A stretch of DNA of 31,328 nt from a virus, in IMG/VR virus record IMGVR_UViG_3300031999_000135, positions 1 through 31,328 of that record. The stretch is one strand, 5' to 3'. The notes beneath the pieces are model-generated. The model saw only the letters and a program-made list of their open reading frames with translations. It searched no databases and had not been told where the DNA came from. Shown here piece by piece: positions 3,102-27,602 of this stretch. How positions within the stretch are numbered: the first letter of the stretch is position 1; each line of letters starts with the position of its first letter. The position numbers and the translations under genes are program-made.

Positions 3102-3449
3102 ATGAAATTAACTATAATGGGTTCTTTTTTATCAACTATAACTCCAAACAATATCATAGCTATTACTTTAGCACCATTTGGAATTTATTTTAGATCAGAA
3201 TGGTATTTAAATAATCAATTGATAAAAACCCACGAAAAAATACACTGGAAACAACAAATAGAAATGTTAATACTACCATTTTATTTATGGTATGGAATAG
3301 AATGGTTTATTAGATTCCTTATACAAAAAAAACAAGCATATAATAATATTTCATTTGAACGTGAAGCTCATATGTTTTCTCATAATATAGAATATCTTAA
3401 TACAAGAAAATTTTATGCTTGGATAAAATGTTTAAGAAAAAAGGATTGA
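3102..3449 (+). CDS. Putative membrane-associated HExxH metallopeptidase-like protein
   Basis: A 115-residue protein with the sequence THEKIHWKQQIEML (residues about 43-56), which contains HExxH, a zinc-binding signature of gluzincin-type metallopeptidases. A hydrophobic segment (ILPFYLWYGIEWFIRFLI, about 56-73) follows, and then a conserved-looking FEREAH (about 85-90) that could give the third ligand. Small proteins with this order (HExxHW, membrane segment, FEREA) occur widely in Bacteroidota, but I know of no characterised member. The gene begins 18 bases after tRNA-Gly and overlaps the next gene by 22 bases. Confidence 0.65.
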   Translation: MKLTIMGSFLSTITPNNIIAITLAPFGIYFRSEWYLNNQLIKTHEKIHWKQQIEMLILPFYLWYGIEWFIRFLIQKKQAYNNISFEREAHMFSHNIEYLNTRKFYAWIKCLRKKD

Positions 3450-3697
3450 ATAATAATATATTAGTATTTGAATTGGATTCTGAATTACGTTCTGAATTGA
3501 GTTCTGAATTGTGGTCTGAATTGGATTCTGAATTAAGTTCTGAATTAGATTCTGAATTAGATTCTGAATTGTATTCTGAATTGGATTCTGAATTAAGTTC
3601 TGAATTAGATTCTGAATTAGATTCTGAATTGTATTCTGAACTGTATTCTGAATTGTGGTTTGAATTAGAATCTGAATTAGATTCTGAACTATTCTAA
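3428..3697 (+). CDS. xSEL tetrapeptide-repeat protein
   Basis: About 89 residues from the ATG at 3428 (chosen over the upstream TTG at 3419). After a short basic N-terminus (MFKKKGLNNN) the protein is almost entirely an x-S-E-L repeat, about 18 units, where x is Asp, Ser, Tyr, Trp, Arg or Glu. A four-residue repeat with Leu every fourth position would place the leucines on a slowly drifting helical stripe, so an acidic extended or helical rod is likely. At DNA level it is a 12-base tandem repeat. Repeat-like DNA continues, degenerate, past the stop to about 3733, so unit number has probably varied. Function unknown. Confidence 0.6.
   Translation: MFKKKGLNNNILVFELDSELRSELSSELWSELDSELSSELDSELDSELYSELDSELSSELDSELDSELYSELYSELWFELESELDSELF
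3521..3640 (+). repeat. Two perfect 60-base higher-order repeats within the xSEL array
   Basis: Bases 3521-3580 and 3581-3640 are identical, each made of five 12-base units. The array as a whole runs from about 3475 to 3697. This points to recent duplication by slippage or recombination. Confidence 0.9.
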
Positions 3698-7365: not shown

Positions 7366-7586
7366 TTAATAATATTAATAAAGAGAATTCGTCGCACTAA
7401 GCAGTAATGCAAGTGAGAAACATCCGAACATCACAGCTTAAAACAGGAGATGAAAATCGTTATAACTGTTGAGGATGCAACCCGAAAGAGCTTAGACGGT
7501 GAGCTGGTCTATAATAGCAAGGTTGGGGCCATTAGACAAATGACGAAATAAAGCAGAATTTGGTGTAAGCTCATATTAATATTAAT
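7366..7586 (+). ncRNA. rnpB: Miniature RNase P RNA
   Basis: The catalytic RNA that removes tRNA 5' leaders. I infer it from the layout of paired elements and conserved regions. P1: 7370-7380 with 7574-7584 (11 bp) plus GAG/CTC. P2: TTCGTC (7388-7393) with GACGAA (7542-7547). P3: CACT/AGTG capped by GCA-GTAA-TGC. P4: ACA then CCGAA (7420-7428) with TTTGGTGT (7559-7566), all pairs formed and U7423 bulged exactly as the universal bulged U of P4. CR-V reads AGACAAATG (7534-7542; E. coli AGAUGAAUG), then GCAGAA (E. coli ACAGAA). GAAAGAGC (7484-7491) and GCAAGG (7517-7522) match further conserved blocks. At about 220 bases it is far shorter than the usual 350-400; P15-P18 seem absent and the specificity domain reduced. 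The 3' end abuts a tRNA at 7590. Confidence 0.85.
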
Positions 7587-7589
7587 TTT

Positions 7590-7704
7590 GCGTCTATAGT
7601 TTAAGGAAGGAAAAGAAATTGGTACCATTTCTCGCAAGAAAATCCTTTTTAGAACGCCATTTCTAGTAAAGATGGAAGTCTTGGTTCAAATCCTGGGAGA
7701 CGCT
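7590..7704 (+). tRNA. tRNA-Thr (anticodon AGT) with a 43-base D-loop insertion
   Basis: Acceptor GCGTCT/AGACGC, D-stem GTTT (7599-7602)/GAAC (7652-7655), anticodon stem CCATTT/AGATGG with loop CTAGTAA (anticodon 7665-7667), T-loop TTCAAAT, discriminator T then C. Between the GG of the D-loop (7605-7606) and its TA (7650-7651) lies an insertion that folds by itself: AAGGA/TCCTT and AGAAAT/ATTTCT. Without it the tRNA has the usual length. The T-stem has one T-T mismatch. The A34 of a Thr tRNA is rare in bacteria. It may be a functional tRNA with an extended D-arm, an RNA with an intron-like insert, or a decayed gene. Confidence 0.65.
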
Positions 7705-7873
7705 CACTTACTGGCACAGCGCTCAATTAGTATATGAATTCCTTTAGTGGAATTTTTGGAAAGACTAACGTACGATAAATCTTTCTGGGTGTAATTGAAA
7801 GGTATAAAGTCATGACTTACCTATTATAAACACAACCTTAATCACACAGGTTTTTCAACATATACTTTTTAAT
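7705..7873 (+). other. Unassigned structured spacer in the tRNA cluster
   Basis: 169 bases with several inverted repeats: TCAATTA/TAATTGA, GAATTCC/GGAATTT, GAAAGA/TCTTTC, the palindrome AAGTCATGACTT inside AGGTA/TACCT, and AACCT/AGGTT followed by five T (about 7842-7865). No T-arm consensus, so no tRNA can be closed. A 13-codon frame starts at 7733. CTGGGTGTAATTG here recurs as CTGGGTGTAATCG in the 8038-8120 spacer. It may be a further divergent RNA or the ruins of one. Confidence 0.4.
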
Positions 7874-7947
7874 GCCTCTATCGTATAGTTGGTTTATTAC
7901 GCTAGATTTGTACTCTTGAAAGTGGGGTTCGATTCCTCATAGAGGCT
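7874..7947 (+). tRNA. tRNA-Thr (anticodon TGT)
   Basis: 74 bases. Acceptor GCCTCTA/TAGAGGC perfect, D-stem GTA/TAC, anticodon loop TTTGTAC (anticodon TGT), T-arm TGGGG-TTCGATT-CCTCA, discriminator T, C74 only. The anticodon stem has one mismatch. Confidence 0.92.
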
Positions 7948-7955
7948 CTTTTATT

Positions 7956-8037
7956 GGAAGATAGCATGCAAGGTGCATAACAGGACTTGAAATCCTGGCC
8001 AACCTTCGGGTTGAGGTTTCGATTACTTTATCTTCCG
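7956..8037 (+). tRNA. tRNA-Ser (anticodon TGA)
   Basis: 82 bases, class II. Acceptor GGAAGAT/ATCTTCC, anticodon stem CAGGA/TCCTG with loop CTTGAAA, long variable arm CAACC-TTCG-GGTTG, T-loop TTCGATT, discriminator G as usual for serine. The D-arm is compact and lacks a standard loop. Confidence 0.92.
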
Positions 8038-8120
8038 CACTGGGTGTAATCGTGGGGCAAACCATGTCTTCAGGTAATACTAGTTCTGATGAAGCATTTG
8101 ATGCTGATGCAGCCCAGTTT
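8038..8120 (+). other. Structured, coding-like spacer between two tRNA-Ser genes
   Basis: CTGGG (8040-8044) can pair with CCCAG near its 3' end, and GCAT-TTG-ATGC forms a hairpin inside. The segment is less AT-rich than its surroundings. A frame from ATG 8064 to TAA 8141 encodes a 25-residue acidic peptide (MSSGNTSSDEAFDADAAQFG at its N-terminus) and runs into the next tRNA. Whether it is an RNA, a peptide or debris is undecided. Confidence 0.35.
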
Positions 8121-8205
8121 GGAGGATTGACTGAGTGGTAAAGTATTAGTCTCGAAAACTAAAGTCATCGTTAAAGGTGCGTGGGTTCAATTCCTATATC
8201 CTCCG
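8121..8205 (+). tRNA. tRNA-Ser (anticodon CGA)
   Basis: 85 bases, class II. Acceptor GGAGGAT/ATCCTCC, D-stem ACT/AGT with GAGTGGTAA loop, anticodon stem TTAGT/ACTAA with loop CTCGAAA, extended variable arm, T-loop TTCAATT, discriminator G. Confidence 0.92.
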
Positions 8206-8210
8206 CTTTT

Positions 8211-8232
8211 TGGAAGATGGCCAGGACTGTAA
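8211..8232 (+). other. tRNA-Ser 5'-half-like fragment
   Basis: GGAAGATGGCCAGGACT at about 8212-8228 resembles the start of tRNA-Ser(TGA) (GGAAGATAG...CAGGACT) with most of the D-arm missing, directly before tRNA-Ser(GCT). It looks like a leftover of tandem duplication. Confidence 0.35.
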
Positions 8233-8318
8233 GGAAAGTAAAATAGTTAGGACACTATCCTCGTCTGCTAAGCGAAGGGGGCAGTAAAACGTCTGAGTTT
8301 CGAGTACTCTGCTTTCCG
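8233..8318 (+). tRNA. tRNA-Ser (anticodon GCT)
   Basis: 86 bases, class II. Acceptor GGAAAGT/GCTTTCC, D-stem ATAGT/ACTAT, anticodon loop CTGCTAA, extended variable arm, T-loop TTCGAGT, discriminator G. Reads AGY codons. Confidence 0.9.
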
Positions 8319-8321
8319 CAA

Positions 8322-8338
8322 ACTTTCTTATTAGAAAG
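8322..8338 (+). other. Hairpin between tRNA genes
   Basis: CTTTCT-TATT-AGAAAG, six base pairs with a four-base loop, between tRNA-Ser(GCT) and tRNA-Thr(CGT). Possibly a processing signal. Confidence 0.4.
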
Positions 8339-8343
8339 AGAAT

Positions 8344-8417
8344 TGCCTTTATAATATAAATGGCTATTATACATAATTCGTAATTATGATATTAGGATTC
8401 GATTTCCTATAAAGGCT
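8344..8417 (+). tRNA. tRNA-Thr (anticodon CGT)
   Basis: 74 bases. Acceptor GCCTTTA/TAAAGGC, anticodon stem CATAA/TTATG with loop TTCGTAA, T-arm TAGGA-TTCGATT-TCCTA perfect, discriminator T then C. Acceptor and D-arm resemble tRNA-Thr(TGT), so the two are probably duplicates with a changed anticodon arm. Confidence 0.93.
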
Positions 8418-8440
8418 CAAATTAAAATAAAAATAACAAA

Positions 8441-8773: not shown

Positions 8774-8858
8774 GGAGAGTAATGCGACTAGGATGTTGTC
8801 ATCGTCTGGAAAGCGAATGGATCTAAGTAAGATTGAGTTTCGAGTACTCTACTCTCCG
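8774..8858 (+). tRNA. tRNA-Ser (anticodon GGA)
   Basis: 85 bases, class II. Acceptor GGAGAGT/ACTCTCC, D-stem GCGAC/GTTGT, anticodon loop CTGGAAA, extended variable arm with ATCT/AGAT, T-loop TTCGAGT shared with tRNA-Ser(GCT), discriminator G then C. With the UGA, CGA and GCU genes it completes a full serine set. Confidence 0.9.
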
Positions 8859-8859
8859 C

Positions 8860-8881
8860 TTTAGGAATATATAAAATAAAC
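8860..8881 (+). promoter_or_regulatory. Candidate promoter, AATATATAAAATAAA motif
   Basis: TTTAGGAATATATAAAATAA immediately follows tRNA-Ser(GGA) and precedes the ATG at 8885 by only a few bases. Its position right at the gene start would give a very short leader. Confidence 0.4.
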
Positions 8882-10794: not shown

Positions 10795-10870
10795 GCGCCT
10801 GTATCATGCCTCGCTTCGAACGAGGAGAAATGTAATTGGATTCATGAGGGTTCGAATCCCTTTAGGCGTA
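10795..10870 (+). tRNA. tRNA-Arg-like RNA (anticodon TCG) with D-arm and anticodon arm in reversed order
   Basis: 76 bases. Acceptor GCGCCTG/TAGGCGT and T-arm GAGGG-TTCGAAT-CCCTT are standard, discriminator A then C. The anticodon-type hairpin CCTCG-CTTCGAA-CGAGG follows only 7 bases after the acceptor. The D-arm-like hairpin ATG-TAATTGG-ATTCAT comes afterwards, before the T-arm. The total length is normal. Either the arms are truly permuted, or the RNA is D-armless with a 20-base variable arm. The CTTCGAA loop has U33 and a purine at 37. Confidence 0.6.
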
Positions 10871-11305: not shown

Positions 11306-11857
11306 ATGAAAAATTTATTTATCATTAATCTACATTCAATTGTGGATATTATCACAAATAGTTCAAGTGAACTATTTATTTGTGATACAAATAAATCAAA
11401 AGAAGTTATTGAAGAATATCTTCGTGAAATGATTAAATTCAATAATTTAGAAAATAAGTATCAAACAACTTATGAAGCTGCATTTGGAGATATTATAGTT
11501 GTGGATGAATCCAATATAAATGAAATTATTGATAATTATATCATTGGTTGGCGTTTTCATTCATATAAATGGCATGGTATTGACCCTACACCAGATTTAT
11601 ATAAACTTCATTCAGAACATGCTCCATATAAATATCCTTATGATCAAAATAGGGAATATAACGAAGCAATTCGTGATGACATCAGGAAAAAAGAAGAAAA
11701 AACAAAAGCTGAGTGGTTAGCCAAAAATGGAGAAAAAGTAAAAGAACAACTTATGGGAAATATTTTGATTTTTAGTCAGGATGATAATTCAATTCCTTTT
11801 GAATTGTTTGAAATTATAGAAAGTAGATTAAATGCTGAAAGAATTCATTTAGGATAA
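11306..11857 (+). CDS. HSxxDxITNSST-signature protein, paralogue 1
   Basis: A 183-residue member of a four-gene family in this window. Its N-terminus carries the family signature LHSIVDIITNSSSELF (residues 10-25). The rest is acidic and aromatic (FHSYKWHGIDPTPDLYKLH, about 92-110; a charged helix of about 130-152) and does not resemble the other members, so conservation is confined to the N-terminus. The signature starts with a beta-like stretch and a polar NSS turn. It may be a targeting tag, a protease site or a shared interaction module. It is the longest and first of the cluster, behind promoter motif 1. Confidence 0.65.
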   Translation: MKNLFIINLHSIVDIITNSSSELFICDTNKSKEVIEEYLREMIKFNNLENKYQTTYEAAFGDIIVVDESNINEIIDNYIIGWRFHSYKWHGIDPTPDLYKLHSEHAPYKYPYDQNREYNEAIRDDIRKKEEKTKAEWLAKNGEKVKEQLMGNILIFSQDDNSIPFELFEIIESRLNAERIHLG

Positions 11858-11881
11858 TTAAAAACAATAAAAACAAATACT

Positions 11882-12355
11882 ATGAAAAAACAAACAATTG
11901 AAGAAGTTAAACAAATTCTAAACAAAATTCCAAAAAAATGTGTAAAAAGTATAGAAATTATTCCTGAAAAATATGATAGTGAATGTATAACTACTAATAT
12001 TTTTGGAAAATCTATTGTACGCTAGTGGAATGGTGAATGGATTTCTAGGAGTAATCCAGAAGACTATAAAAATATATTAGAAAATGATTGTAATGAGTTT
12101 TGGTGCTTGGGGCGTTACCATTATTTAATAGAAAATAAAAGATTTAAGCAGTTATCATATGTTTTAATAAAATTACATAAATTAGAAAATCTTGATATAA
12201 AAAAATCTGTTGAAAACACTTTAGATATTATAGTGTGGAATGAAGAGGGAGATTGTTTAAATATATTTAAAGAATTAAAAGATTTTATCTTAAGTGAAAG
12301 ACCAATAGGATATTCTGAAAAATATTTTAATTTTGAATTACAAAATAGTTTATAA
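11882..12355 (+). pseudogene. Hypothetical protein interrupted by an in-frame amber codon
   Basis: The frame from ATG 11882 reads 47 codons to TAG at 12023-12025 and then stays open for another 110 codons to TAA at 12355. Both halves look coding (CVKSIEIIPEKYDSEC before; WNGEWISRSNPEDYKNILEN directly after). A TTG at 12107 could start a shorter protein, but the region between would be wasted. A TGG or TAT to TAG change explains it, or amber readthrough. Nearly all genes here stop with TAA, so amber is a rare stop. The gene lies between paralogues 1 and 2 but lacks the family signature. Confidence 0.5.
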
Positions 12356-12370
12356 ATAAAAATAAATAAT

Positions 12371-12835
12371 ATGATTAAAATTAAATTACACTCGATTACG
12401 GATTTGATTACAAATTCCTCAACCGTTATATTCACTTATAGCGGAGGAACTATTAAGCCATTAAAGGCTATGATAGATGAAATTGCAAAAGTTTTAGGAT
12501 CATCTAAAACATGTGATGAAATGTTTGATGCTATCATTCTTTGTGATGATGCAGATACATATTCAAAATGGATGGGCGAAAGAAGAGAAGATGGGGAAGA
12601 ATACCCCGACGGTGTTGATGAAAATACCGATATTGAAGCTCTTTGGAATGATGTTCGTATTGGAAAGGTTGCTAAACCTAAATGGTTTGAAGAAGTTGAA
12701 AATTCTGAAGATTATAATGGTTATAATCCAAGTACTTATTTATACTTGATTGTTAAAAGTACAGAGTATATTGAAATGGGAGAACTTATTAAAGGCTTTT
12801 TATATAGTATAGACAATGAAGCAACTGAAGGTTAA
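12371..12835 (+). CDS. HSxxDxITNSST-signature protein, paralogue 2
   Basis: A 154-residue paralogue with the signature LHSITDLITNSSTVIF at residues 5-20, immediately after the start, without a leader. The remainder is acidic with Trp and Tyr (CDDADTYSKWMGERREDG, about 56-73; NSEDYNGYNPSTYLYLIV, about 114-131) and ends with EMGELIKGFLYSIDNE, a C-terminal pattern shared with paralogue 3 (KLAELFKKFLYSGEYFE). Its 3' end overlaps the start of paralogue 3 by 20 bases, so they are co-translated. Function unknown. Confidence 0.65.
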   Translation: MIKIKLHSITDLITNSSTVIFTYSGGTIKPLKAMIDEIAKVLGSSKTCDEMFDAIILCDDADTYSKWMGERREDGEEYPDGVDENTDIEALWNDVRIGKVAKPKWFEEVENSEDYNGYNPSTYLYLIVKSTEYIEMGELIKGFLYSIDNEATEG

Positions 12836-13265
12836 AATTCCGTTACACTCTTTGATTGATTTGATTACAAATTCATCAACTGAGATTTTCGTACATAGTG
12901 AAAATTCATTAAAAGTGTGTAAAGAATTAGTTAATGAATTTTTGCAACTTACCGGAAGTGTAAATACCTTAACCTGTGATGATATATTTGATTTGTCACT
13001 TGAGTATACTCCATATATAGTGGATAATTATAAAGCTTTTATTAAATATGATTTTGAAGATAATCTAAGTGAATTTGACGAACGATGTAAAGAATTGGAT
13101 GATTTTATAAACAATAAATTACAAGTTGAACCAGGTTGGATTGATATGTATGATCTTGAAACTAAATTAGTTATTAAAGCTAAAAATCCTTCTTATAAAA
13201 AGCTTGCTGAATTGTTTAAAAAGTTTTTATATTCTGGAGAGTATTTTGAACATTCAAATGCATAA
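12816..13265 (+). CDS. HSxxDxITNSST-signature protein, paralogue 3
   Basis: A 149-residue paralogue. Signature PLHSLIDLITNSSTEIFV at residues 9-26; the central part is acidic (DDIFDLSLEYTPYIVDNYKA), and the C-terminus KLAELFKKFLYSGEYFE matches paralogue 2. So paralogues 2 and 3 share both ends, with divergent centres. It overlaps paralogue 2 by 20 bases and is 11 bases before paralogue 4. The proteins are soluble, with no membrane segment or signal peptide. Confidence 0.65.
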   Translation: MKQLKVKIPLHSLIDLITNSSTEIFVHSENSLKVCKELVNEFLQLTGSVNTLTCDDIFDLSLEYTPYIVDNYKAFIKYDFEDNLSEFDERCKELDDFINNKLQVEPGWIDMYDLETKLVIKAKNPSYKKLAELFKKFLYSGEYFEHSNA

Positions 13266-13276
13266 AAAATGAATAA

Positions 13277-13615
13277 ATGAAAACAAAATTATGTACGATT
13301 AAAGTTCACAGTATTGTAGACTTAATTACAAATAGTTCTACTGAGTTATTCTGTGTTATAAAAGCAGATTCTTTAAAAGCTGTAGAAAAAGTTATTAAAG
13401 AAATTCTGGATGAATGTGGTTGTGTAATACTTAGTAATCGCTCTGATGATGGTTTAACAGTTGAGCAACGTACAAACTGGAATAATGTAACCCAGCATGA
13501 GGATATAATTAAAGGAGAATTTGCTATTTACTATGAACAGCATGCGCCCCCTTGTAAATTAGTTTTAAGAAAACTTAAAGAAGTTTTCGAAATAACTGAA
13601 GAAGGAGATATTTAA
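13277..13615 (+). CDS. HSxxDxITNSST-signature protein, paralogue 4
   Basis: The shortest paralogue (112 residues). Signature VHSIVDLITNSSTELFCV at residues 10-27; a helical central region (LKAVEKVIKEILDECGC, about 33-49) and a C-terminal strand-helix (CKLVLRKLKEVFEITEEGD). It closes the cluster and is followed 20 bases later by a strong terminator, so genes 11306-13615 form one operon. Confidence 0.65.
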   Translation: MKTKLCTIKVHSIVDLITNSSTELFCVIKADSLKAVEKVIKEILDECGCVILSNRSDDGLTVEQRTNWNNVTQHEDIIKGEFAIYYEQHAPPCKLVLRKLKEVFEITEEGDI

Positions 13616-15300: not shown

Positions 15301-15750
15301 ATGCTTAAAACTAGAGTTTTTCCGGAACATAATTATAAAGGTCTCTATCTTAATGGTAGGACACTTCGTCTTGCTCTTGATCCCAATAAACCTATTACTG
15401 AACTTTCATATCCTGAATTTTTTGATGTGAAAGTAACATCTCAGTGTAAAGGCAATTGTCCGTACTGCTTTACCGAAAATACAGCAATAAATACTGAAAA
15501 TAAGAAAGAATTAATAAAAAATATTAAAGTAAATGATAAAATTATTACATTTAATGAAAAAATAAATAAAAATGAAGTTAATTCGGTTTCACAAGTATAT
15601 AAGAGAAAATATTCTGGTGATATTATAGAAATTATATTGGAAAATAATGATATTATTGAAATTACTCCTAATCATGAAGTATATGTTAAAAATAAAGGAT
15701 ATATAAGAGCTGATGAATTATCAGAAAGTGATGAATTATTAGAAATTTAA
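15301..15750 (+). CDS. Radical SAM enzyme N-terminal part fused to N-intein
   Basis: 149 residues. Residues 1-55 are the start of a radical SAM enzyme ending in SQCKGNCPY, which holds the first two cysteines of CX3CX2C. Residue 56 (Cys, codon 15466-15468) begins an intein: CFTENTAINTENKKE is block A, and ITPNHEVYVKNKGYIRADEL (about 120-139) is block B with the TxxH motif. The frame then stops at 15748. The third cluster cysteine comes from the other gene (C+1 at 16006-16008). So the product is a precursor needing protein trans-splicing (or frameshifting) to make CKGNCPY-C. See 15901-16716. Confidence 0.88.
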   Translation: MLKTRVFPEHNYKGLYLNGRTLRLALDPNKPITELSYPEFFDVKVTSQCKGNCPYCFTENTAINTENKKELIKNIKVNDKIITFNEKINKNEVNSVSQVYKRKYSGDIIEIILENNDIIEITPNHEVYVKNKGYIRADELSESDELLEI

Positions 15751-15904
15751 TAACATTAAACAATTAGAATATGGTTCTGATTTATTTTATATAATAAGAG
15801 ATGAAATAATTGAATATCATTTAAACAATGACATAGGCATTGTGGTATGTATTAAACATCATGATATAATTGATAAATTTTATCATAAACCAAATAATTT
15901 ATGA
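15743..15904 (+). other. Open frame between the two intein halves, without its own start
   Basis: In the +1 frame relative to the N-intein, codons 15743-15901 are open and encode about 53 residues (starting KFNNIKQLEYGSDLFYIIRD), with TGA overlapping the ATG of the C-intein. There is no ATG or GTG start, and a TAG precedes it. It looks like the middle linker of an originally continuous intein, now flanked by two single-base frame changes. It may be a non-translated relic or be reached by frameshifting at 15745-15750. Confidence 0.5.
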
Positions 15905-16716
15905 AAATAAAAAAAATTACAAGAAAGCAATATAATGGTTATGTATACAACATTGGAGTAGAAAATATACATAATTATTATGCAAATGGTATATTAGTAC
16001 ATAATTGTTATCAAGATAGTTTGATGTACATAGATCATATGCCTATTTTGGATAAATTTAAACAATATTTTGGAATATTATCAGAAAATCAAAAACCTTT
16101 TCAAATTGCATTTGGGGGCGGAGAACCTACATCTCATCCTGAATTTCTTACATTAATAAAGACATGTTATGAAATGGGTATTACCCCCAATTATACTACA
16201 AACGGAATGTGGACAAATAGTTCAGTTAGTATTCAACAAGAACTTTTAGAATATACTCAGAAATATTGTGGAGGTGTTGCAGTGTCGACACATCCTCATC
16301 TTAAAAAATATTGGAAGAAAGCTATTGATTTATATCTTGATAAAAATATATTTACAAATCTTCATGTTATCATTTCAGATAAAAAATCTATAGATGATTT
16401 TATGAAAATTTACAAAAAATATCATGAAAAAGTTAAGTATTTTGTACTTCTTCCGTTATCAAGTCAGGGGCGGTGCAAAGAAGCGATTATTCATTGGGAT
16501 TATGTGGTTAAAACACTTCCACAAAATTGTGAGGACATAGCGTTCGGCGCTAATTTTTACCCTTATCTTTGTCAAACACCTGGAAGATTTCCAGTATCAC
16601 TCTATGAACCAGAACTTATGAGCAAATATTTATCATTAGAAGATATGAAAATATATCCATCAAGTTTCAGTAATAAGGCTATTGAATTAAATGGAATTAA
16701 TTGGATAATAAAATGA
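15901..16716 (+). CDS. C-intein fused to radical SAM enzyme C-terminal part
   Basis: 271 residues. Residues 1-35 form a C-intein with blocks F and G: VYNIGVENIHNYYANG (15-30) then ILVHN, the terminal His-Asn, followed by Cys36 (+1). The length and start match known naturally split C-inteins (about 35-37 residues, starting MxKI). Residue 36 on is the rest of the radical SAM domain: CYQDS completes CX3CX2C, then IAFGGGEPTSHPEF is the GGxEP SAM-binding motif and NYTTNGMW follows. The C-terminal region has more Cys (YLCQTPGRF) that may bind another cluster. The substrate is unknown. It overlaps the next gene by four bases (ATGA). Confidence 0.88.
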   Translation: MKIKKITRKQYNGYVYNIGVENIHNYYANGILVHNCYQDSLMYIDHMPILDKFKQYFGILSENQKPFQIAFGGGEPTSHPEFLTLIKTCYEMGITPNYTTNGMWTNSSVSIQQELLEYTQKYCGGVAVSTHPHLKKYWKKAIDLYLDKNIFTNLHVIISDKKSIDDFMKIYKKYHEKVKYFVLLPLSSQGRCKEAIIHWDYVVKTLPQNCEDIAFGANFYPYLCQTPGRFPVSLYEPELMSKYLSLEDMKIYPSSFSNKAIELNGINWIIK

Positions 16717-23353: not shown

Positions 23354-25756
23354 ATGGTAAATAAAAATTTATTAATCTTAGAACGTTCTTCTCAAAATTT
23401 ACAAAAAATAACAAGAGATGGGAAGACAATGCTCGAAGGAGTTTTTGCGGAATTTGGAGTCGAAAATCGTAATGGAAGAATATATGAAGAGAAGGAATAT
23501 CTACCTCACTTGGAGTATTTAAAGAAAGACATTCAAAACAACAATCTTCTTGGTGAACTTGATCATCCTGAAAGATTCGAAGTTGCATTAGGTAATGTTT
23601 CTCACAGAGTTTCTGAGTTATGGTACGACCAGGCAAAACGTCAAGTTTTAGGTCGTATTGAGATTTTAGATGGTACTCCAAAGGGTCAAATTGCTAAAAC
23701 ATTATTGGAAGCAGGTGTTCCGCTTTCAATTTCTTCAAGAGCTGCTGGTACAGTTAATGAAGACAAAACTGTTGCAATTCAACAGATTTATACCTATGAC
23801 TTAGTTGCTAAACCTGGTTTCGAATCAGCACAATTACACTCAGTTAATGAAAATGCAAATCCAAGACAAACTGAATTAAATTTATTAATTCAACAACTTA
23901 ATGAATCTTCTACTTCACGTAAAGAACATAGTCTCAATTCAAAATTTGGTATTATTAATGAAAACCTTTCTATTATCGATATGACAGATAAATTTCCTCA
24001 ACTTGAAATTAGAAAAGAAGCTCAAAAACTGGAAACAATTAAAATCAAAAATAATAAAAATAATCAAATGGCAGAAACAAACCCAGAAGTTATTAATGAA
24101 GAAGCTATCCAAAAATGGACACTTTTTTATAATAAAGAACTTAGCGCCATAAATGAAAAATTAGATGCAATTAAGAATGGTAGTGATACTACAAATTTAG
24201 GTGTAATTAAACAGTATATTGAAAAAATACGTAAGATTCAAGAAGATTCACTTAATTGGCAATCTGAAATCGCTAAGGCAGTTAATGAAGTTGCTACTTA
24301 TGCCGACACATTGGCAGACAAAAGTAACAAACATTACAAACTAACTAAAAAGATTGTAGAAACAGTTGACCATAATGCTAAAACACTTAATGCAACACAA
24401 GATTGGACAACTAAAGTAGCAAAAGTTACAAATGCAATCGGAGAAACAGTAGATCATAATGCAGAAATGCTTAATGGTGTTAACGAATGGACAGCCCAAA
24501 TTGCTAAGGGTGTCAACAAATTAAATGAATGGGGTGGTGAAAAAGCAAAAGCTATTAATGATATGCACGACTGGGTTGGCACTCAGGCTAAAACTATTAA
24601 TGGCATGCATGAATGGACCTCATCAATCGCAAAAAATCTTAATCATTCAGTTAATTGGACTGAAGACATGTTTGGTAGAGCAATTTCCAAAGAAGATGCA
24701 ATGAAACTTATGGAATATGTTGAAGTAGTTGCCGAATCCAAACGAAATCCAGAACTAAAACTTAAAATAGACGAAATGCTCAAAACACATTCAATCACAG
24801 CAAAGCCTCTCAACGAAGCACAACTTAAAGGTATTATGGTTATTGATACTGTAGGTAAAGTAGGAAACTACAAAACTCAGGATCTTAGTTCCAAAAATAC
24901 TGGAGTTGAATTTGATGAAAAAACCAAAACAATTATTTCAAAATTAAGAAATATTAGACTTAGTAAAGAAAAAATGCCTGTAGGTGATGATAAATTACAA
25001 ATGCCAGGCGATGTAAAACCCGAAAAAGTTGGTGATGATGGTTGCTGTAATGATCCCAAAGACCTTAAAACTGGTCTTAAACTAACAAAAGTTCTTAATG
25101 TAAGTAAAGAAGATGGCCCAACGGGTCCAGTCTCAAAACATGTAAATGATCAAAATCTTAAACTTGATGTTAAACCGGAAGGTAAACTCAAGGAAAATTT
25201 GAATAAAACTTTAGAGCTTAAGGCTCGTAGATTCAATCTTGATGAAAAACTTACTAAAATCATTGATACACTTGATAAAGAAAAAAGTGTTGACGAAGGA
25301 GTTAAATCAAGTTTTCCATTCACACAACTTTTAAGTGAAGGTGATAGAAAAAGATTCGCAGGCTTAGATGCAACCGATAAACAAAAAGTCGCTTCAGAAA
25401 TTCAAAAAGTTCCAACAACTGATTCTAAAGTAATCGTTAAATTATGGGAAAACGCTTTAACATCCAATGTAGTTGATCAACCTCTTTGGATGACATTAGC
25501 TCCTAAAGTTTACAAAGATGCTTATGATAAATCATCAGAAGCTATTAAAGAAAATATCAATGCGAAAGCAGAATTCTTTAATTTATCAACACAATATCAA
25601 ATTGACAATTTCTGGGAAACACATAGTGGTGTTATTTCAAGACCAACATTTACACTAAATGAGTCTATTACTGCTATAAGTCCAGAAGAAACAGAACAAA
25701 AAGTTGATACATTCGTTGCAGGAATAGGTGAACAAATGAAAAAATGGATATACTAA
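23354..25756 (+). CDS. Prohead protease (gp21-like) fused to scaffold protein
   Basis: An 800-residue fusion. Residues about 25-175 are a T4 gp21-type prohead serine protease: EFGVENRNGRIYE, LLGELDHPERFE (His71), and PLSISSRAAGTV (Ser127/128 as nucleophile). The remainder is scaffold-like: long helical, Lys/Glu-rich, with imperfect repeats carrying EWTxxIAK and VDHNA (about 325-445). A Met at 24068 (MAETNPEVINEEAIQKW) has an AT-rich leader and could start a separate scaffold product, as T4 makes gp21 and gp22 separately. Likely self-cleavage sites of the T4 type LxE occur (PLNEAQ). The C-terminus ends before the capsid gene. It acts in the prohead. Confidence 0.85.
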   Translation: MVNKNLLILERSSQNLQKITRDGKTMLEGVFAEFGVENRNGRIYEEKEYLPHLEYLKKDIQNNNLLGELDHPERFEVALGNVSHRVSELWYDQAKRQVLGRIEILDGTPKGQIAKTLLEAGVPLSISSRAAGTVNEDKTVAIQQIYTYDLVAKPGFESAQLHSVNENANPRQTELNLLIQQLNESSTSRKEHSLNSKFGIINENLSIIDMTDKFPQLEIRKEAQKLETIKIKNNKNNQMAETNPEVINEEAIQKWTLFYNKELSAINEKLDAIKNGSDTTNLGVIKQYIEKIRKIQEDSLNWQSEIAKAVNEVATYADTLADKSNKHYKLTKKIVETVDHNAKTLNATQDWTTKVAKVTNAIGETVDHNAEMLNGVNEWTAQIAKGVNKLNEWGGEKAKAINDMHDWVGTQAKTINGMHEWTSSIAKNLNHSVNWTEDMFGRAISKEDAMKLMEYVEVVAESKRNPELKLKIDEMLKTHSITAKPLNEAQLKGIMVIDTVGKVGNYKTQDLSSKNTGVEFDEKTKTIISKLRNIRLSKEKMPVGDDKLQMPGDVKPEKVGDDGCCNDPKDLKTGLKLTKVLNVSKEDGPTGPVSKHVNDQNLKLDVKPEGKLKENLNKTLELKARRFNLDEKLTKIIDTLDKEKSVDEGVKSSFPFTQLLSEGDRKRFAGLDATDKQKVASEIQKVPTTDSKVIVKLWENALTSNVVDQPLWMTLAPKVYKDAYDKSSEAIKENINAKAEFFNLSTQYQIDNFWETHSGVISRPTFTLNESITAISPEETEQKVDTFVAGIGEQMKKWIY

Positions 25757-25829
25757 ACTAATGCAATAAGTATTAAAAATTAAAGTTTTGTTAAAAATAA
25801 ATAAAACAAAAATAAAATAAACTAAATAA

Positions 25830-27602
25830 ATGAAACAATTAAACGAACAACAAATCGTGCAAAAATGGTCTCCAATGATAGAGTCGGTTACAGGTCTTAA
25901 AGACAAAAATAGACTTTCATGGATTTCTAAATATGCACACTTTCATGCATTGAATGAAGCTGCAATGGGCGGTGTTAACCAACCTTATGCTACTCTTTAC
26001 AATGTTCCAGGCGTTGGTAGTGTAGTTCCTGCTACTTTAGCAGCTACAACTGGTGCTCAACAAACTAGCTTAACAGCAAGAGGTTCTGGCGACAAATGGC
26101 CCGCACTTCTTCCTATGGCTCTTCAGGTAGCTGCAAGAACAATCGGTTTCGACCTTGTTAATGTAGTTCCTATGCCAGGTCCAACAGGAGTTATTTCCTA
26201 TTTGGATTATGTATACGCAGGTGGTAAACAACCTTATGGTGCACAACCAGCAAGAAGTATTGCTACTGCTAATCCAGCAACTGTTGCTGGTACAGCTGCT
26301 TATGCACTTAATGAAGCTCCTTTGGCATTCAAAGTTCAATTTGTTACAACTGACGCATCAGTAGTAGCCCTTAAAGCTGCTTTAGTTGCAGGTGGTAAGG
26401 GTACACCAATATTTTTTGATGCTGCTGATACTTCAACTGGAACAACAACTTTAAATGCTAAGTATATTGGTCTTTCAAGAATTGATGGTTTTCCAATGTT
26501 TAAAACAGGAACATTTAAAGGTACTAATGCTAATTTAGCAAGTATTTTTGATGGTTCAAACTTTGCTATGGCTGGTGGTGTAGGTACTGTTATGGCTACA
26601 TATCCTTCACTTATTTCTACACTAGAAGATCAAGTTCAAGGTTTCACAGGCGCAGGTCAAACTGATAATGATAGTTGGGAAGGCACATTTGTAGCCGGAA
26701 CTTCACTTTATGAACCTATGGAACGTGGAGTTGGTGAAATGGAATATCCAAGAGCTCTTGGCTTACAGGTATTCACAAAATTCATCGCAGTTGGAACTTA
26801 TCAAGTTTCCGTTTCTGTAACTCAAGAACAAATTCAAGATCTTAATAAACAATGGGGTATTGATGTTATCGCTATGGTTGAAAACGCTGGTATCAACGAA
26901 ATCAGTCAAAGTATTAACAAACACATCCTTTCAAGATTATTCGGTCTTGGTTGGTTAAATCACCTTAATGCTTATACAGTTGAAGGTATCAACCTTAACA
27001 TGAACTGTACTTCTACTGGTGCTCTTACTTCAACATCTTATGCTTATCCTGCAGATGGTGCAGTTGCAACAGACACTATGAGCATTCCAGGTTTTGTTAC
27101 CTATGCATCCGTAGTTGGAGCAACTTTCGAAAACCAAGATACTCTTATCAAGAGAATCATGGCTAACATCCTTGCAGCTGGTAATGTTGTTATGCAACGT
27201 GGTCGTAGAGGTCCTGCAAACTTTATCGTTACAAACCTTAAACTTGCAACAGCTCTTCAAAGCAATGCTCAATACTCATTCTCACCTATCACTAATACAT
27301 TTACTCAGTCAAACGGTTCGTTGTATCCTCTTGGAACAATAGCTGGTATGACTCTTTATGTAGATCCTAATATGATCTATTCTGACACTAGAGTACTTGT
27401 TGGACGTAAAGGTGCAGCAGATGAACCAGGTGTGGTATTCGCTCCTTATCTTATGGCTGAAAGTGTTAAGCTTATCACTGAAGGTACAGGTGCTCCAAAG
27501 GTTATCATCAAATCAAGATATGCTCTTGTAGATGCAGGTTTCCATCCAGAAACTCAGTACATAACTTTATTCTTCCACACTAACAGTGGTGCTATTATCT
27601 AA
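25830..27602 (+). CDS. Major capsid protein (T4 gp23-like)
   Basis: A 590-residue T4-type major head protein. The N-terminal 43 residues are a charged helical propeptide (QQIVQKWSPMIESVTGLKD) ending in LNE before Ala44, fitting the T4 protease rule (L/I)xE. The core has WPALLPMALQVAARTIGFDL, VVPMPGPTGVISYLDYVYAG and, near the C-terminus, VDAGFHPETQYITLFF, all gp23-like. It is longer than T4 gp23 (521). HK97-fold. It ends 18 bases before a strong terminator. Its codon use is less AT-rich (more third-position C/G) than the accessory genes, as expected for highly expressed protein. Confidence 0.93.
   Translation: MKQLNEQQIVQKWSPMIESVTGLKDKNRLSWISKYAHFHALNEAAMGGVNQPYATLYNVPGVGSVVPATLAATTGAQQTSLTARGSGDKWPALLPMALQVAARTIGFDLVNVVPMPGPTGVISYLDYVYAGGKQPYGAQPARSIATANPATVAGTAAYALNEAPLAFKVQFVTTDASVVALKAALVAGGKGTPIFFDAADTSTGTTTLNAKYIGLSRIDGFPMFKTGTFKGTNANLASIFDGSNFAMAGGVGTVMATYPSLISTLEDQVQGFTGAGQTDNDSWEGTFVAGTSLYEPMERGVGEMEYPRALGLQVFTKFIAVGTYQVSVSVTQEQIQDLNKQWGIDVIAMVENAGINEISQSINKHILSRLFGLGWLNHLNAYTVEGINLNMNCTSTGALTSTSYAYPADGAVATDTMSIPGFVTYASVVGATFENQDTLIKRIMANILAAGNVVMQRGRRGPANFIVTNLKLATALQSNAQYSFSPITNTFTQSNGSLYPLGTIAGMTLYVDPNMIYSDTRVLVGRKGAADEPGVVFAPYLMAESVKLITEGTGAPKVIIKSRYALVDAGFHPETQYITLFFHTNSGAII

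Follow-up and report, generated by a model that had tools for sequence, protein, structure and literature searches.

A miniature RNase P RNA of phages, usually encoded in tRNA arrays

The locus and the anatomy of its RNA

RNase P RNA is an ancient ribozyme that trims tRNA precursors, and one of the few ribozymes that are nearly universal. The window analysed here, which is the whole 31,328-base viral record IMGVR_UViG_3300031999_000135, carries a gene for a miniature form of this RNA upstream of a group of tRNA genes. Further along the same strand lie the genes for a prohead protease and a T4-type major head protein, which identify the contig as that of a tailed phage. The features of the window are as follows.

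7368..7586, plus strand: miniature RNase P RNA gene, P1 to P1', about 215-219 nt, with ends inferred from P1
7370..7385, plus strand: P1 5' strand, UAAUAUUAAUA..GAG; 7370-7380 pair with 7574-7584 (11 bp) and 7383-7385 with 7570-7572 (GAG/CUC)
7388..7392, plus strand: P2 5' strand UUCGU; five pairs with 7543-7547, forming a pseudoknot with P4
7395..7415, plus strand: P3 hairpin, CAC/GUG and GCA/UGC; 7395-7397 pair with 7413-7415
7415-7426, plus strand: CR-I, GAGAAACATCCG
7420-7428, plus strand: P4 5' strand ACA-(U7423)-CCGAA, with U7423 bulged; pairs with 7559-7566
7429..7432, plus strand: P5 5' strand CAUC; four pairs with 7474-7477
7434..7440, plus strand: 5' strand of the P6 pseudoknot, CAGCUUA; partner UGAGCUG at 7500-7506
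7442..7470, plus strand: P7 hairpin, AACAG/CUGUU, loop GGAGA..UCGUU..AC; remnant in place of the specificity domain, with P8-P14 absent
7477..7480, plus strand: GCAA of J5/15, on the active-site side; GCAA in 85 of 86 family members
7481-7483/7525-7527, plus strand: P15, CCC/GGG; covaries
7490-7492/7516-7518, plus strand: P16; covaries
7494-7497/7507-7510, plus strand: P17; covaries
7521-7523, plus strand: L15 GGU; invariant in the 35-row alignment and present in 86 of 86 members
7534-7542, plus strand: CR-V, AGACAAATG
7543-7547, plus strand: P2 3' strand
7553-7558, plus strand: CR-IV, GCAGAA
7559..7566, plus strand: P4 3' strand, UUUGGUGU
7590..7706, plus strand: tRNA-like gene with a long insert, GCGUCUA..GGUUCAAAUCC..AGACGC, found by direct reading (no ARAGORN call); starts about 5 nt past P1, at the position of the downstream tRNA of other members
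7874..8418, plus strand: tRNA island Thr(TGT), Ser(TGA), Ser(CGA), Thr(CGT), called by ARAGORN and Rfam
23354..27602, plus strand: prohead protease (phrog_207, E 2.1e-38) and T4-type major head protein (phrog_138, E 1.3e-30)

Read against E. coli M1 RNA, the block GCAA[CCC]GAAA...AAGGUU[GGG]GCC comprises J5/15, P15 and L15. Its GCAA is the counterpart of the E. coli G246-A249 region, including A248 and A249, and its GGU corresponds to GGU 292-294 of M1 RNA; in known RNase P RNAs the L15 GGU pairs with the 3' CCA of the tRNA. The P16/P17 stem lies inside this block, and the loop of the stem pairs with the stretch 3' of P5 to form P6.

The original prediction had proposed that a phage-encoded miniature RNase P RNA heads a tRNA island at this locus, and the elements on which it relied (P1, P2, P3, P4 with the bulged U at 7423, CR-I, CR-V and GCAGAA) were all found at the positions given for them. 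Its statement that P15-P18 are missing holds for P18 only, as P15, P16 and P17 are present together with the P6 pseudoknot, and its view that much of the specificity domain is gone proved correct, the domain being almost wholly absent. In place of P8-P12 and CR-II/CR-III there is just P7 with its short conserved loop, and the alignment of one relative (L106) to RF00010 matched the C-domain end to end while leaving the S-domain nearly empty. P18 is absent from the window and from most relatives, with insertions at its position in L002, L131, L133 and phage DLP6. Longer inserts at the P7/S-domain position occur in a few relatives (L102, L124, L127, L128, L130, L131 and L132). In L127, L128 and L130 the P7 loop is longer by about 60-80 nt, lying between its GGAG and UCG, and this stretch may be what is left of the specificity domain or may have replaced it.

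Rfam release 15 returned no RNase P match for the window at gathering score or at E<=10, and single-sequence folding of the window did no better than shuffles (z -0.65). The case for the window RNA thus rests on its homologues.

Other coding features were observed elsewhere in the window. A radical-SAM-like protein (15301-15750 and 15901-16716) appears to contain a natural split intein: an N-intein closes the first ORF, and the second, after a gap of about 150 nt, opens with a short C-intein (MKIKKITRKQYNGYVYNIGVENIHNYYANGILVHN, then CYQ). The ORF at 3419-3697 consists almost purely of SELxSEL repeats, and four consecutive small ORFs at 11306-13615, each with an LHSI/LxDLITNSST(E)-like motif at its N-terminus, form a tandem paralogous family.

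Covariation and homology across a viral family

Relatives were gathered by blastn of the phage collection and by IMG/VR pattern scans on CR-I, CR-V, CR-IV and P15, with a covariance-model check, yielding a family of 86 members with 78 distinct cores that fall into about 76 clusters below roughly 93% similarity. Core motifs are retained in 79-86 of the 86 members, and AGANNAAUG, from the segment that holds CR-V, the P2 3' strand and CR-IV (7534..7558 in the window), occurs in all 86. A covariance model (R2), trained on 34 relatives with the window left out, matched the window at 7412-7570 with 136.1 bits (E 2.6e-27). Other loci outside the training set scored 87.9 bits (the cultured phage DLP6), 114.7 bits (LR756511) and 107.9 bits (a contig from a metagenome-assembled genome, MAG), and the top non-member score in the R2 search was 19 bits, among decoy loci that included chance matches of a first loose pattern. 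The matches of that loose pattern were mostly chance, the best reaching 19 bits, and were rejected. A blastn match in a Clostridioides phage (L003) covered the P1 region only, gave no covariance-model match and was set aside as a non-member.

For the covariation count, 35 members were aligned with plain MAFFT, and P2, P4, P5, P6, P7, P15, P16 and P17 were scored, including the P2/P4 and P6 pseudoknots. Paired cells amounted to 90.0%, versus 62.9% when shuffled, a figure that leans towards the structure, which had itself been read off the window and this alignment. Changes on both sides of a pair are free of that lean; they were seen in 34 of 39 pairs and in 374 cells, versus 112 in shuffles. 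The covariation score was 0.701, compared to 0.198 for shuffled alignments and 0.09-0.15 when the partner was slid by 1-3 columns, and these far lower controls argue against an alignment artefact.

The signal extends over individual helices. In P4, 98.6% of cells are paired over eight pairs, six of which change on both sides, and the window version (ACA-U-CCGAA/UUUGGUGU) is one among many compensated versions; the compensatory change first proposed from the window alone is confirmed across 35 homologues. P2, which interleaves with P4, shows both-side changes in 5/5 pairs with 88% of cells paired, and the P2/P4 pseudoknot topology is thereby supported. P5 forms all four pairs in every one of the 35 sequences, using several pair types; P6 shows both-side changes in 6/7 pairs and is complete at 7 bp in the window and many other members; and P7 is 93.7% paired with both-side changes in four pairs, the GGAG and AC of its loop being nearly invariant. 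P1 is variable in sequence and present in most members (median 9 bp), with a helix score, over 68 members, of 20.7 within loci versus 12.9 +/- 2.6 between loci. Nearly all members have a short P3 hairpin ending at CR-I (for example CUC-UACG-GAG, CAC-UACG-GUG or CUG-GAAA-CAG).

Homology to bacterial RNase P RNA was found in both directions. Rfam class A or archaeal RNase P models matched 8 of the 11 member loci tested, with E values from 1.5e-14 to 3e-4 and all below gathering score. RF00010 matched L106 (E 1.5e-14), L036 (E 2.7e-12) and the DLP6 RNA (E 2.1e-14), and the archaeal RF00373 matched the RNA of phage LR756502 (L001; E 2.9e-6). The best member reached 56 bits, short of the RF00010 gathering score of 100 bits, and the family has been overlooked so far because its Rfam scores are always below gathering. 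Conversely, a viral-only model found the class A rnpB genes of two Bacteroidota genomes (E 2.7e-10 and 5.9e-11; Rfam scores 222 and 216 bits), aligning in register at CR-I, GCAA, GGGU, CR-V and CR-IV/P4; these weak matches are the cells' own rnpB and were rejected as family members. No competing Rfam family was found, and the reading of the window RNA as another RNA family was likewise rejected. Lack of both a significant covariance score and compensation among homologues, or clear membership of another family, had been named in advance as grounds for abandoning the prediction, and neither was encountered.

Its covariation, its homology to class A rnpB in both directions and its genomic context mark the window RNA as a genuine, phage-encoded RNase P RNA, and on the same comparative evidence it is a natural, bacterial-type, catalytic-domain-only form of about 215 nt. 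Its membership of the RNase P RNA clan (CL00002) is well supported; class A is defined by an S-domain and a gathering score, and the phage RNAs fall outside that definition. They share with class A RNA (RF00010) P1-P7, P15-P17, the P2/P4 topology, the P6 pseudoknot, CR-I, CR-IV, CR-V, the J5/15 GCAA and the L15 GGU, and the whole core can be aligned in both directions. In contrast to class A RNAs, which are 340-420 nt long (PMC4919922), the phage RNA measures about 215 nt, lacks P8-P14 and P18, has a short hairpin as P3 and a P4 whose sequence drifts with compensation, and is viral and located in tRNA arrays.

Other reduced forms of RNase P RNA offer further parallels. As described in PMC4919922, which cites Lai et al. 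2010, the minimal archaeal RNase P RNA of Pyrobaculum is a natural form consisting of the catalytic domain alone and in this respect resembles the phage RNA; going by that description, it is archaeal and works with archaeal proteins, whereas the phage RNAs still possess the bacterial P15-17/P6 region and GGU, and two of the genomes encode a bacterial-type RnpA. Isolated C-domains of the E. coli or Pyrococcus (P. furiosus) RNA are catalytic though less efficient, with P18 dispensable; in engineered C-domains efficiency falls by about 500-fold or more, and they still cleave model substrates without the S-domain (PMC5839562). The phage RNA has the same helix set as these constructs and retains the P15-17/P6 region that they need (PMC5839562), but unlike laboratory constructs it is natural and conserved and possesses a conserved P7 loop of its own. 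Like the phage RNAs, the RNase P RNAs of CPR bacteria score below standard Rfam thresholds and miss helices (P12, P13, P14, P18 and sometimes P15; PMC8172020). They are cellular, however, with different losses and with the UGG/GGU element often lost (PMC8172020), whereas the phage RNA always keeps GGU.

Distribution, tRNA neighbourhood and RnpA

The original prediction regarded the RNA as very unusual and knew of no characterised relative; it is no singleton and belongs to a family that is widespread among viruses and includes one cultured phage. Blastn matches include the huge curated phages LR756502 (642 kb) and LR756501/LR756503 (735 kb). The RNA is also carried by the 595-kb LR756511, the 634-kb LR745206 and the 484-kb LR756508, the latter two being additional to the 86 members, and member contigs of 405-527 kb were found as well. 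The cultured Stenotrophomonas phage vB_SmaS-DLP_6 (KU682439.2; DLP6) carries the RNA at about 105,774-106,014, unannotated and within a 30-tRNA region, and the DLP6 paper (PMC5349666) makes no mention of RNase P. Exactly one copy is present in each of 28 whole records (28/28), of which 18 also carry a gp23-type capsid gene.

The family is not universal in large or tRNA-rich phages, as R2 found no member in T4, phage G, XacN1, Atu_ph07, SCTP-2, S-CRM01 or the 636-kb LR756504. A pattern based on the tail end of the RNA matched 24 IMG/VR contigs, all of them members (24/24), whereas in 257 Gb of GTDB bacterial and archaeal genomes it gave 13 matches with one member, on a 13-kb Bacteroidetes MAG contig. 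The gene content of this contig makes it probable that a fragment of a phage was binned with the MAG, and a model scan of 296 Bacteroidota genomes gave no strong score besides it. Matches of the tail-end pattern in Neomarinimicrobiota and other cellular genomes were dismissed as chance or coding sequence.

ARAGORN called tRNAs in the fetched stretches of 69 of 85 loci; in the other 16 it called none, many stretches being short. The nearest tRNA shares the strand of the RNA in 69/69 loci and lies within 100 nt in 39, and this close, same-strand arrangement suggests co-transcription with the RNA. Many downstream tRNAs start 10-20 nt past the modelled core, leaving room for the P1 3' strand. Further long-insert tRNA-like genes that ARAGORN did not call were observed in the window at 8211-8320 and 8776-8860 (two Ser-like), and these genes suggest that the window phage has unusual tRNAs. 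An Rfam tRNA match of 34.8 bits at 10795-10870, also without an ARAGORN call, combines a reduced D-arm with a long variable region. As a separate observation, a permuted tmRNA gene (RF04321, 136.8 bits) lies in DLP6 at L198:2024-2245, corresponding to about 102,838-103,059 of KU682439.2, and is missing from its feature table; tmRNAs were seen at member loci L135, L136, L157, L158, L166 and L179, and a permuted one at L137.

Two of the huge phages, which rank among the largest known, also encode RnpA, the protein subunit. The LR756502 protein matches PF00825 (53 bits) and NCBIfam TIGR00188 (52.5 bits, cut-off 38.35) and carries the RNR signature KKFKRAVDRNRVKRLMRES, and the LR745206 protein is 51% identical to it, so that both RNase P subunits are present in LR756502 and in LR745206. 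A ClpP-like protease gene was noted near rnpA in LR745206.1 (about 72.6-76.8 kb; L215 176-916 and 1465-1812). RnpA was found in 1 of 28 records of the first member set and in 0 of 48 further records, many of which, like that of the window, are fragments, and no close relatives of the phage RnpA were found in IMG/VR. Given this rarity, host RnpA would be needed in most cases.

Proposed function and significance

We consider it very likely, from sequence comparison, that the locus encodes a catalytic-domain RNase P RNA that processes the 5' ends of phage pre-tRNAs with RnpA supplied by the host and rarely by the phage. The RNA would probably be transcribed together with the phage tRNAs and would bind host RnpA, with phage-encoded RnpA at hand in two huge phages. 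The pre-tRNA would be held through its CCA end, by the L15 GGU, and through the acceptor/leader region, and the P4 metal site would cut off the 5' leader. Where the RNA abuts the next tRNA, a cut at the tRNA 5' end may also free the 3' end of the ribozyme. Because the specificity domain is lost, only weak dependence on the tRNA elbow is expected, which may suit atypical phage tRNAs; the odd tRNAs of the window, with their long inserts and the D-arm-poor example at 10795-10870, fit such relaxed dependence without proving it.

A different substrate range was also weighed, in which pre-tRNA would not be the main target and the RNA, as an MRP-like relative, would act on precursors of tmRNA, on host RNAs or on polycistronic transcripts of the phage. 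RNase P does have non-tRNA substrates, such as pre-tmRNA (PMC4919922), and several members lie near tmRNA genes, but no other linkage observed comes close to that with tRNAs, and the loop that binds CCA is retained, making this reading improbable, and it is in any case compatible with pre-tRNA cleavage and not exclusive of it. We regard as slightly less probable still that the RNA is an RNase P-derived decoy or inhibitor, which would sequester host RnpA or pre-tRNAs and lower host RNase P activity with no cleavage of its own. Such a role could be imagined for an RNA without a specificity domain in phages that mostly lack RnpA; the active-site side would then be superfluous, yet hardly any member lacks P4 with its bulged U, GCAA, CR-IV/CR-V or the GGU that binds CCA, the RNA lies inside phage arrays whose tRNAs need processing, and two phages bring their own RnpA. 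That the short core and sub-gathering Rfam scores point to an rnpB captured and decayed into a pseudogene, or to bacterial sequence contaminating viral collections, is hardly credible, since compensatory change throughout excludes drift, the tail-end pattern identifies members in 24/24 IMG/VR matches versus 1/13 in 257 Gb of cellular genomes, and the family includes curated huge phages and a cultured phage, with gp23 in 18/28 records.

Pre-tRNA processing remains the preferred reading. We also hold a broader one to be quite likely, namely that phages evolved their own RNase P, a single-domain, bacterial-type ribozyme transcribed within the tRNA array that it would serve, acting with host RnpA in most phages and with phage RnpA, as a full viral holoenzyme, in at least two phages of 630-640 kb.

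Among the open-access papers that could be searched, none was found to describe an RNase P RNA from a phage, and the term RNase P is absent from the huge-phage paper and from two jumbo-phage reviews. A scan of two megaphages with all of Rfam gave only tRNAs and a tmRNA (PMC8172020), an outcome that fits the sub-threshold scores of the RNase P models. The covariance model would let annotators find a family that standard Rfam thresholds miss.

The accretion model of RNase P proposes an ancestor made of the catalytic domain only (PMC12974513); the phage RNA resembles such an ancestor, but presumably through reduction. With a natural bacterial-type C-domain lacking an S-domain, the need for the S-domain and the way in which RnpA copes with its loss become directly testable, and because DLP6 is a cultured phage, genetics and biochemistry are feasible now. 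The wide distribution of viral RNase P RNA suggests that phages bring a core piece of the cellular tRNA-making machinery with them and have even the earliest step of tRNA maturation under their own control.
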